A DNA stretch of 64,000 nucleotides from Rhodothermales bacterium (GTDB lineage: Bacteria > Bacteroidota > Rhodothermia > Rhodothermales > JANQRZ01): contig JANQRZ010000018.1 in the NCBI GenBank assembly GCA_028284265.1, positions 1-64,000 of the forward strand, in the 5' to 3' direction. Within the stretch, counting starts at the first letter, position 1, and each line of letters begins with the position of its first letter. The notes beneath the pieces are model-generated. The model saw only the letters and a list, made by a program, of their open reading frames with translations. It was not told the DNA's origin and ran no database searches. This document shows positions 20,070 through 23,017 of this stretch, in pieces. The position numbers were made by a program, and so were the translations under genes.

Positions 20070-20263
20070 GAGACGCTGCGGGACGGGAGCAAGCAAGTGG
20101 ACTGCACGATGCAGCCGCGCCGCATCTCCGGCGCAAGTATAGCGATGCGCACCCCATCTGCGCACCTCTGCCATCATCAACTGGTCGCTCCCTCCCGAGG
20201 GGTAGCAGAGTGACATATTGCTCGACCCCGCTTATCTTCGCCGCCCCTCAACGTCGGTCGTTC

Positions 20264-22897
20264 ATGTCCAAGTCCAAACGCAACATCGACCCTACCCTCT
20301 ACCAGATAGGCCGAGTCTGGACGGCGGAGAAGAAGCAGCCTTGGATTACGCATTCCGGTCTAGACCAAGGCGTACATCTCATCCGCCAGCGACTCATGGG
20401 CACGCCACCTCGGTCGGTCATGCTTGTGGGGGAAACCGGGACCGGCAAGACCACACTCATCCAAGCCCTCGGCCAGCGACTTATCTCCGACGACTGGACG
20501 GTGTTCGAGGCCACAGCCACCGATGTGATGGCCGGGCAGACCTACATGGGCCAACTGGAAGACCAGTTCCAGCGCCTCGTCGCCGCGCTCGAACAGCCGA
20601 AGACGCTGTGGGTCGTGCCACGCTTTCACGAACTGGCCCACGCAGGACGCCACCAGTACAACCCAGTCAGCGTGCTCGACCAGCTCCTCCCGATCATCCA
20701 ACGGGGGCAAATCCGGGTCGTGGCGGAGGTACCAGCGGGCGCATACCGCCAACTCACGGCACAGCAGCCCCAGCTTCGGGCGGCGATGGATGCGGTGAAC
20801 GTGCCCGCGCAATCGTCCCAGGCCTCGCTCAGCCTCGCCCAAGCTTGGGCCGAGCGCGCCGTCAAGCCGGGCACCTCGCCGCTGGCCTCGGACAATGTGC
20901 TGACCGAAGCGCTCACGCTCGCCCGGCAGTACCTACCCGGACTCGCCCTTCCCGGCTCCCTGTTCCGGTTGCTGCACCTCGCCCGCACGGAGGCCGATGC
21001 CATCAGCCCGGCCTCCCCGAATCGCATCAAACCGGAGCACCTCCTCACCACGCTCCGGGCGATGACCGGCCTCCCCGACGTCGTGCTCGACGACCGCGAG
21101 GCGCTCGATCTCGACGCCCTCCAACACCATTTTCGCAGCCGTGTGCTCGGCCAAGACGAGGCCGTGCAGGTGCTCGTGGACCGCGTGGCGATGATCAAGG
21201 CGGGACTTACCGACCCCTCGCGCCCATCCGGCGTGTTCCTATTCGTCGGCCCCACCGGAACGGGCAAGACGGAGATCGCCAAAGCACTGGCCGAGTACCT
21301 CTTCGGCTCGACCGAGCGGCTGGTCCGGCTTGACATGAGCGAGTTCCAGACATCTGACTCGCTCGATCGCATCCTCGGAGCCGGGATCGGCTCAGGCGAT
21401 CAGTCGGCGCTGGTCGATGAAGTACGCAAGCATCCGTTCTCGGTCCTCCTCCTCGACGAGTTCGAGAAAGCTGCGCCGAGCATCTGGGACCTCTTCCTCC
21501 AAGTCTTCGACGACGGACGCCTGACGGACCGGCTCGGCCAAACGGTCGACTTTCGGCACACGATTGTCATTATGACGAGCAACCTCGGTGCGGCGGTCCA
21601 GACTGCGCCGGGCATCGGGTTCGGGGCCGCCCCCGACGGATTCAACGCGGATCGCGTAGCCCAGTCTCTCGGCGACGTATTCCGACCCGAGTTCATCAAC
21701 CGGCTCGACCGCGTCGTCACGTTCCAACCCCTCAGCCGTTCGACGATGCGAACTCTGCTCCAGCACGAGCTTCGGGCAATCCTCGCCCGGCGTGGGCTGC
21801 GGCAGCGCCCGTGGGCGGTCGAGTGGGATCAGAGCGCCATCGAGTTTCTCTTGGAGGAAGGGTTTACACCCGACCTCGGAGCACGGCCGCTCAAGCGAGC
21901 GGTGGAACGCCACCTGCTGGCCCCGCTGGCCCGCGTGATGGTGGCCCACGCCGTCCCCGAAGGCGACCAGTTCCTGTTCATCCGGGCCGGACAAGATGGA
22001 CTCAAAGCAGAGTTCGTAGACCCCGACGCCGACGGCATCCCGGAGATTGAGGAGTCCGATGCCGAGCGCACGCTCCAAGCCATCGTGCTCGACCCCTATG
22101 GAACCGCCGAGGACCTCGGCCTGCTTCGTGCAGTCCACGAGCGGCTGGAGGAAAAACTGGCGGCACCGGACTGGAACGACGCCAAGGCGGAGTCGCTGCA
22201 GCGCATGGCCGACCCCGATTTTTGGAGCGACGAGGGACGGTTCGCGCTGCTCGGCGAGGCCGAATACCGTGAGCGCATCGAGGCCGGGCTGGACACCGCA
22301 GCCTCGCTCCTAGAACGCCTGACGGGACCGGAGCGAGTGAGTGCTCCACCGCGTCTCGTCGGGCGACTCGCGCAGCAACTCTTCCTCGTCGATGAAGCTC
22401 TATCGACGCTCGAAGCTAACGAACCGCACGACGCCTACCTCCACGTAGAAGCAGGCGACCTGGGCGATCAGGCCGCACAGCGCATCGGTGCGATGTACCG
22501 TTCGTGGGCGCGCCACCGACGGATGCGACTCGACGTGCTCGATGAGGCGAGGAAACCGTATGCCCTCACCTTGGCCGTCTCCGGCTTCGGGGCGTATCGT
22601 CTCCTCCGGTCCGAAAACGGACTCCATGTTTTCGAGCACACCGAGAAGGGCGAGAAGAAACGCGCGACCGTCCGCGTCCGCGTGGAGCCTCAGCCCAGCC
22701 GCCCAGCCACATCACCCAACGAGGCACGCAGCCAAGCGCAGGAAGCCTTCGCCGGTCAACCGGCCCGGCTCGTCATCGTCCGCCGCTACCGCGAGGGCAA
22801 GAACCCGCTCGTGCGCGACACGCCTAAAGCGTGGCGCACCGGACGCATCGACCGCGTGCTCAACGGGGACTTCGACCTCTTCGCCGGAATCTCCTGA
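20264..22897 (+). CDS. ClpB-like double AAA+ ATPase fused to a GGQ-less RF2-like release-factor module
   Basis: The ATG at 20264 gives 877 residues. There is no Clp N-domain and no ClpB coiled-coil M-domain. AAA+ module 1 (about 35-240) has Walker A GETGTGKT (56-63), but its Walker B position reads LWVVPRFHE, lacking both acids. Module 2 (about 290-575) is complete, with GPTGTGKT (329-336), LLLDEF (395-400), sensor-1 TSN (438-440), RPEFINRLD (474-482) and sensor-2 GARPLKR (539-545). The C-terminus resembles RF2: ADPDFWSDEGR (649-659), EAGDLGDQAAQR then MYRSWA (729-749), GAYRLLRSENGLHVF (776-790), and VLNGDFDLF (865-873) as the domain-4 end. The GGQ domain is replaced by a linker of about 25 residues. 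A ribosome-directed unfoldase role is inference. Confidence 0.88.
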   Translation: MSKSKRNIDPTLYQIGRVWTAEKKQPWITHSGLDQGVHLIRQRLMGTPPRSVMLVGETGTGKTTLIQALGQRLISDDWTVFEATATDVMAGQTYMGQLEDQFQRLVAALEQPKTLWVVPRFHELAHAGRHQYNPVSVLDQLLPIIQRGQIRVVAEVPAGAYRQLTAQQPQLRAAMDAVNVPAQSSQASLSLAQAWAERAVKPGTSPLASDNVLTEALTLARQYLPGLALPGSLFRLLHLARTEADAISPASPNRIKPEHLLTTLRAMTGLPDVVLDDREALDLDALQHHFRSRVLGQDEAVQVLVDRVAMIKAGLTDPSRPSGVFLFVGPTGTGKTEIAKALAEYLFGSTERLVRLDMSEFQTSDSLDRILGAGIGSGDQSALVDEVRKHPFSVLLLDEFEKAAPSIWDLFLQVFDDGRLTDRLGQTVDFRHTIVIMTSNLGAAVQTAPGIGFGAAPDGFNADRVAQSLGDVFRPEFINRLDRVVTFQPLSRSTMRTLLQHELRAILARRGLRQRPWAVEWDQSAIEFLLEEGFTPDLGARPLKRAVERHLLAPLARVMVAHAVPEGDQFLFIRAGQDGLKAEFVDPDADGIPEIEESDAERTLQAIVLDPYGTAEDLGLLRAVHERLEEKLAAPDWNDAKAESLQRMADPDFWSDEGRFALLGEAEYRERIEAGLDTAASLLERLTGPERVSAPPRLVGRLAQQLFLVDEALSTLEANEPHDAYLHVEAGDLGDQAAQRIGAMYRSWARHRRMRLDVLDEARKPYALTLAVSGFGAYRLLRSENGLHVFEHTEKGEKKRATVRVRVEPQPSRPATSPNEARSQAQEAFAGQPARLVIVRRYREGKNPLVRDTPKAWRTGRIDRVLNGDFDLFAGIS

Positions 22898-22904
22898 ACG
22901 ACAA

Positions 22905-22939
22905 GAAGGGCCGCCGGAATCTTGTTCCAGCGGCCCTTC
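22905..22939. terminator. Bidirectional hairpin between the AAA+/RF fusion and tRNA-Ala
   Basis: A 10-bp perfect stem (GAAGGGCCGC at 22905-22914 with GCGGCCCTTC at 22930-22939) is extended by a second 4-bp GGAA/TTCC stem inside. It sits 7 bases past the stop codon of the fusion gene and 5 bases beyond the 3' end of the convergent tRNA. A U-rich run is weak on either side, but the position suits termination of both transcripts. Confidence 0.65.
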
Positions 22940-22944
22940 GGATG

Positions 22945-23017
22945 TGGAGCATAGCGGATTCGAACCGCTGACCTCCTCGCTGCCAGCGAGGCGCTCTACC
23001 AACTGAGCTAATGCCCC
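22945..23017 (-). tRNA. tRNA-Ala (anticodon GGC)
   Basis: Read on the minus strand, the 73 bases fold into a complete cloverleaf. The acceptor stem is GGGGCAT/ATGCTCC with the G3-U70 wobble that marks alanine tRNAs. The D-arm GCTC/GAGC, anticodon stem CCTCG/CGAGG with loop CTGGCAG (anticodon GGC), and T-arm AGCGG/CCGCT with TTCGAAT are all intact. The discriminator is A. CCA is not encoded. The gene is convergent with the AAA+/RF fusion gene. Confidence 0.96.

Follow-up and report, generated by a model that had tools for sequence, protein, structure and literature searches.

A Clp-type AAA+ protein carrying a degenerate release factor 2 module in a Rhodothermales bacterium and its relatives in Planctomycetota

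A release factor (RF)-like protein that acts on stalled translation together with an AAA+ motor has been described in eukaryotic ribosome quality control, in the form of Vms1 and Cdc48 (PMC6514570), and the main survey of release-factor evolution mentions AAA+ proteins as Cdc48 partners only (PMC6514570). Among bacterial Clp ATPases, the [ILV]G[FL] loop of ClpA, ClpC and ClpX serves docking to ClpP (PMC9035409). Here we describe a gene from a 64,000-nucleotide stretch of a Rhodothermales bacterium (contig JANQRZ010000018.1; hereafter the window), the product of which joins two Clp-type AAA+ modules, in a single chain, to a C-terminal module that by sequence or predicted fold is a degenerate RF2. 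The likeness to Vms1-Cdc48 is one of analogy only, as Vms1 is a member of the aeRF-1 superfamily, which is structurally unrelated, the two eukaryotic proteins are separate polypeptides, and their ATPase is of the p97 type. We found no description of a fusion between a release factor and an AAA+ ring in the open-access literature, in keeping with a first-pass annotation made from the DNA letters, which knew of no named system of this form; the fusion thus apparently represents an undescribed family of Clp ATPases with an exapted RF2.

The C-terminal ~275 residues almost certainly descend from RF2. The first-pass annotation had read them as an RF2 in which a short linker replaces the GGQ-bearing peptidyl-hydrolysis domain (domain 3); the RF motifs that it quoted are all present in the protein, and both parts of its reading were borne out by profile searches. 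Residues 709-788 match Pfam PCRF above the cut-off (E 1.4e-7; 32 bits versus 24), residues 627-788 match the NCBIfam prfB family (E 1e-5), and when the last 278 residues were searched with phmmer, the top solved structure was Escherichia coli RF2 (1gqe; E 1.8e-6), the other significant matches among solved structures being release factors only. A profile of 14 sequences of the window's own form of the fusion, which we call type A, matched RF2 with a probability of 98.1 (E 7.1e-14) and RF1 with a probability of 97.2 (E 2.9e-11) in profile-profile comparison. When domain 3 was removed in silico from the RF2 profile, the match extended to the C-terminus over 220 columns (E 2.5e-15); taken by itself, the C-terminal tail matched RF2 with a P of 3.6e-5.

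The predicted fold agrees with these searches. An AlphaFold model of the RF module, built from three sequences, had a predicted local distance difference test score (pLDDT) of 75.6 and a predicted template modelling score (pTM) of 0.76, and all 49 of its Foldseek matches at E<=0.001 were of RF1/RF2 type, with 1gqe again the best (E 9.5e-10). Superposition of the model on RF2 with VIA-align gave a Z of 17.9 and a root-mean-square deviation of 4.3 over 263 residues, covering RF2 residues 5-362, and the model alignment indicates that the window protein has retained RF domain 1 as well. Profile, fold and family evidence together rule out that the similarity is due to chance or artefact. Neither of the two outcomes that the first-pass annotation had named as refuting its reading, a C-terminus with no significant release-factor match in profile searches or a predicted structure unlike RF domains 2/4, was observed. 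Since the window's genome separately encodes an ordinary RF1 and an ordinary RF2, the latter with its SPF, GGQ and switch loop intact, the fused copy is an extra, specialised paralogue.

The manner of this descent can be followed in a second form of the fusion, type B, in which an AAA+ protein with HEAT repeats is fused to a full-length RF2 (16 Planctomycetota loci, L274-L289). The type B module aligns with RF2 end to end, domain 3 included (329 columns, probability 100, E 1.1e-41), and with the type A module at an E of 1.8e-37. Its domain 3 is eroded: the GGQ positions read mostly R/K-G-R/V, and the Pfam RF-1 domain is weakly visible, with an E of about 0.005. Because type B combines full RF2 length with a domain 3 that lacks GGQ, the descent is visible stepwise, as a series leading from RF2 to type B with a dead domain 3, and on to type A with domain 3 deleted; as judged from these alignments, type B is an evolutionary intermediate. 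A quick tree of 35 members separated the two types with a support of 100 in the Shimodaira-Hasegawa-like approximate likelihood ratio test (SH-aLRT).

The tip of helix α5 and the HTS motif are among the RF parts that serve stop reading or contact with the 30S head and helix 69 (H69). The SPF motif reads the stop codon, and the switch loop contacts H69 and the decoding centre (PMC6742477). In both types of the fusion the GGxEA tip of α5, SPF, HTS and the WGSQ switch loop have all been lost, and domain 3 with its GGQ is absent from the window protein and from type A, which therefore would not hydrolyse peptidyl-tRNA by known means. The module retains no known motif for stop reading or peptidyl-tRNA hydrolysis, and the loss of catalytic function is, on motif grounds, as good as shown. 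Near-invariant RF2 positions were kept at 17 of the 60 mapped in type A and at 13 of 81 in type B. What persists in both types is a kernel consisting of the FW of domain 1, the M of α5, a G, E-x-G-x-H, R-x-Y, a D and a further G, which is invariant or nearly so across RF2, type A and type B; the RF-invariant residues E179, H183, R315, Y317 and D327 (numbered as in the genome's own RF2) likewise vary little or not at all in either type. Within the type A module, conservation is highest in the arginine-rich tail (Table 1). With the kernel conserved and the termination motifs gone, the module is under selection, and not for termination; we would expect no terminator role for the fusion protein. 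Compared with RF2 (prfB), the fusion therefore shares the fold of domains 1, 2 and 4 along with the kernel, but lacks SPF, HTS, the α5 tip and WGSQ, has a domain 3 that is missing (type A) or devoid of GGQ (type B), and is part of an AAA+ ring.

The rest of the protein is Clp-like. Pfam places AAA_2 at residues 320-483 and ClpB_D2-small at residues 490-569, and residues 53-561 form one continuous NCBIfam ClpA match. As the first-pass annotation had it, there are two consecutive Clp-type modules (D1 and D2, the latter with its small domain) with neither a Clp N-domain nor an M-domain, and nothing is inserted between them. The motif states of both rings were scored across 35 members of the family. 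In ring 1 of the window protein, Walker A and the pore-loop aromatic (TYMG) are kept, Walker B is lost and the paired arginine fingers are lost; in the family, Walker A is present in nearly all members and the pore-loop aromatic in all but one, type A has lost the paired arginine fingers and type B keeps them in part, and no member has the Walker-B aspartate or the catalytic glutamate (0/35). In ring 2, Walker A, Walker B, sensor 1, the arginine finger and sensor 2 are present throughout, and GYVG is found in the pore loop of none of the 35 members. Ring 1 is, by motif, a dead ATPase, and ring 2 is intact by the same measure. The first-pass proposal of an ATP-driven factor that does not hydrolyse peptidyl-tRNA is partly supported, in that the AAA+/RF2 fusion lacks GGQ and ring 2 is intact by motif. 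That GYVG is missing from D2 in every member argues against ordinary threading, an activity the first-pass annotation had carried over from Clp rings and which the ring 1 Walker B loss makes more doubtful still; this is probably not a classical two-ring threading unfoldase. The motifs point instead to a ring 2 that still does ATP work without gripping or pulling a chain by its own loops.

The loop between sensor 1 and the FRPEF helix, at the ClpP-docking position of ClpA, ClpC and ClpX, carries the tripeptide [ILV]GF in 33 of 35 members and FGF in the other two. The same tripeptide was found in 28 of 64 reference Clp ATPases from titled loci and is lacking from the ClpB-type references; a ClpP gene is present in the window's genome, and ring 2 may have retained docking to ClpP. 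This tripeptide, together with type B and the N-terminus described below, had been missed in the first-pass annotation. The combination of ring motifs points to a ClpA/ClpC-like ancestor. The fusion resembles ClpA and ClpC in its Hsp100 order of two AAA+ modules, the lack of an M-domain, the D2 ATPase motifs and the [ILV]GF loop, but differs from them in lacking the Clp N-domain, the D1 Walker-B acids and the D2 GYVG, in its added RF2 module, and in that most of its relatives begin with a transmembrane helix and α-repeats or with HEAT repeats. Among solved structures, D2 best matches the ClpB-type structure 1qvr (E 2e-86), yet in comparison with ClpB/Hsp104 the fusion lacks the M-domain, the N-domain and the D2 pore loop, and it has the ClpP loop, which is missing from ClpB. 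To keep a ClpP-type IGF, LGF or VGF without GYVG in D2 is an odd pairing for a Clp ATPase. A Clp ATPase from Anaerolineales (L186), in which the LGF loop is present and YVG is absent from the pore loop by simple pattern, is possibly a further variant.

Where the N-terminus is complete, type A proteins start with a hydrophobic helix (mean Kyte-Doolittle score of 1.5-2.3 over 19 residues) followed by basic residues and then by about 200 residues that look α-repeat-like, for which Pfam names nothing convincing. This arrangement occurs in most type A members (L240, L242-L245, L248-L250, L144 and L290-L293), and most of these relatives are probably anchored in the membrane at their N-terminus; under the positive-inside rule, this would place the rings and the RF module in the cytoplasm, tethered to the inner membrane. 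The type B N-terminus has HEAT-like repeats and no hydrophobic helix. The window protein and its homologue from Ulvibacterium have no such N-terminal region at all, the window copy having lost it.

The fusion is common only in some Planctomycetota. Type A was found in 16 of 392 sampled genomes of that phylum, and type B in 23 of 382; as the type B profile pulls in all ordinary release factors, its matches were sorted by open-frame length and long frames alone were counted. One further homologue, from an uncultured metagenome-assembled genome (L144), also proved to be planctomycetal, and the class of that genome gave 10 of 154. In the window's order, 4 of 114 genomes carry the fusion, the window included, the three other proteins being full-length homologues with 48-52% identity. 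One homologue occurs in Ulvibacterium marinum (Flavobacteriaceae, Bacteroidota), the only positive (1/299) in a sample of its family, and among the matches listed for 199 Acidobacteriota there was no fusion, most being RF-sized frames of 336-683 aa. In the quick tree the window protein, its order-mates and the Ulvibacterium homologue fall within type A beside planctomycetal sequences, for which a planctomycetal origin followed by transfer would be the simplest reading. The gene is not a pseudogene: the frame is intact, the kernel is conserved and full-length relatives are 41-52% identical. Nor could it be assigned to a mobile element or defence system, as phage records yielded no full fusion (the 155 hits being partial Clp matches), plasmid records gave weak RF2-type matches alone, viral contigs contained no full fusion (one search returned generic Clp ATPases alone), and the PADLOC matches were to generic AAA+ proteins.

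We favour, with a probability of about 0.42, a reading in which the protein is an ATP-driven Clp ring, perhaps linked to ClpP, that uses a retired RF2 as a docking arm, most likely for a ribosomal target. The subunits would assemble as a hexamer in which ring 1, with its aromatic pore loop kept, would hold, and ring 2 would supply ATP-driven conformational work; the retired RF2 would serve as the docking or adaptor arm by which the ring, perhaps together with ClpP, reaches its target, for which a ribosomal particle or a translation complex is the most likely candidate. When a Clp ring ends in a C-terminal domain that is conserved but not catalytic, a docking arm is what one would naturally take it for, and we regard this part of the proposal as probable. 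To our knowledge, release factors and their known derivatives (ArfB, PrfH and mtRF1) work on ribosomes. Since RF-derived proteins habitually do so and the polar kernel has been kept, a ribosomal target is plausible, at slightly less than even odds. Coupling to ClpP is suggested by the one tripeptide, and we would likewise place ClpP as a partner just on the doubtful side of an even call. The strongest form of the proposal, a new class of translation quality-control machine in which an inactivated RF2 takes a ClpP-recruiting ring ATPase to ribosomal complexes, is clearly unlikely; were it true, the state of the ribosome would be coupled directly to protein extraction or degradation, and in many Planctomycetota this would take place at the inner membrane.

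Several observations weigh against this docking-arm reading. With the stop-codon and H69 contact elements lost, the protein would have to bind a ribosomal target in a new way, and the missing D2 pore loop fits badly with the feeding of ClpP. No conserved partner gene was found across lineages, nor do translation or protease genes recur near the fusion; the gene acts alone or with partners encoded elsewhere. The full-length AlphaFold model, from three sequences, reached a pTM of 0.37 and was not used.

The alternative that survives best is exaptation away from the ribosome, in which the RF2 fold would now serve the ring in structure, oligomerisation or regulation, or would bind a non-ribosomal protein, with no further part in translation. 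It would explain why the polar RF2 motifs for contact with the codon, 16S/H69 and the peptidyl transferase centre are all gone in both types while the core of the fold stays, and it suits a neighbourhood without translation genes and the predicted membrane anchoring usual in type A. However, it sits uneasily with the retention of the five RF-invariant polar residues in both types and with the arginine-rich tail, where the module is best conserved; we consider it somewhat unlikely. Less probable again is entry of RF domains 2 and 4 into the ribosomal A site, followed by ATP-driven ejection or remodelling of stalled complexes without ClpP, which the first-pass annotation had proposed by extension from ordinary RF2. 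The kept fold of domains 1, 2 and 4, the absence of GGQ and hence of hydrolysis, and a D2 ATPase intact by motif are all compatible with this model, but the RF2 elements that make the contacts on which it would depend have been lost family-wide, it leaves the kept ClpP tripeptide without a reason, and one RF arm per subunit of a Clp-size ring would need space outside the A site; it is possible, not favoured over a docking arm, and on balance improbable. A decoy or handler role, in which the module mimics RF2 to bind RF partners (for example PrmC or RF3) or the ring remodels RF1 and RF2, accords with the fold mimicry and with a genome that has intact RF1 and RF2 genes at other sites, but is very improbable, as PrmC modifies domain 3, which type A lacks and type B has in eroded form.

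If the retired RF2 of the docking-arm reading still finds ribosomes, the family would provide a bacterial case in which an RF-like protein and a Clp motor are physically coupled, with a logic like that of Vms1-Cdc48, and the coupling of stalled translation to ATP-driven protein handling could be tested with one protein. If it does not, the family still clearly documents a core translation factor that lost its function stepwise, from RF2 through type B to type A, and was reused in a motor. In either case, a protein whose ring 1 is dead, whose ring 2 is live but has no translocating loop, and which has kept a ClpP tripeptide poses a well-defined puzzle for AAA+ mechanism.

The features of the locus are collected in Table 1. 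The same frame has an alternative start, GTG at 20210; the ATG at 20264 is favoured because the homologues support it.

Table 1. Features of the fusion gene and its immediate surroundings, in window coordinates.
Feature	Position	Strand	Basis or remark
Whole gene: AAA+ D1, AAA+ D2, GGQ-less RF2 module	20264..22897	+	877 aa; full-length homologues
AAA+ ring 1 (D1)	20351..21013	+	dead ATPase by motif; Walker A GETGTGKT kept (20429-20452); Walker B lost, position reads VVPRF (~20609-20635)
AAA+ ring 2 (D2)	21035..21973	+	ATPase motifs intact; Walker A GPTGTGKT (21248-21271), Walker B LLLDE (21446-21460), sensor 1 TSN, arginine finger NR, sensor 2 GARPLKR
D2 pore-loop region	21377..21409	+	shorter, variable loop in place of GYVG
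IGF tripeptide at ClpP-docking loop position (residues 451-453)	21614..21622	+	motif
RF2-like domain 1, helical, conserved FW	22070..22414	+	profile, model alignment
Stretch matched by Pfam PCRF (PF03462)	22388..22627	+	Pfam
RF2-like domain 2, without SPF, HTS and GGxEA tip	22427..22693	+	profile, motif mapping
Short linker at the site of RF domain 3 (GGQ)	22694..22771	+	~25 residues
RF2-like domain 4 and tail, VRRYR..P.VRD..WRTGR..RVL.GDFDLF	22772..22894	+	profile
15-pair inverted repeat between gene and tRNA-Ala	22905..22939	.	terminator-like hairpin
tRNA-Ala(GGC), convergent to the fusion gene	22944-23017	-	tRNA call

The neighbouring genes, identified by eye, are unrelated (GyrA-like, glycoside-hydrolase-like, sodium-symporter-like and an aspartokinase-homoserine dehydrogenase), and synteny is limited to close relatives, namely the window's three order-mates and one trio of type B loci. 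Downstream of one type A gene (L293:7983-11666), and with no recurrence seen, lies a gene that by eye encodes a TIR-like domain followed by WD40-like repeats.
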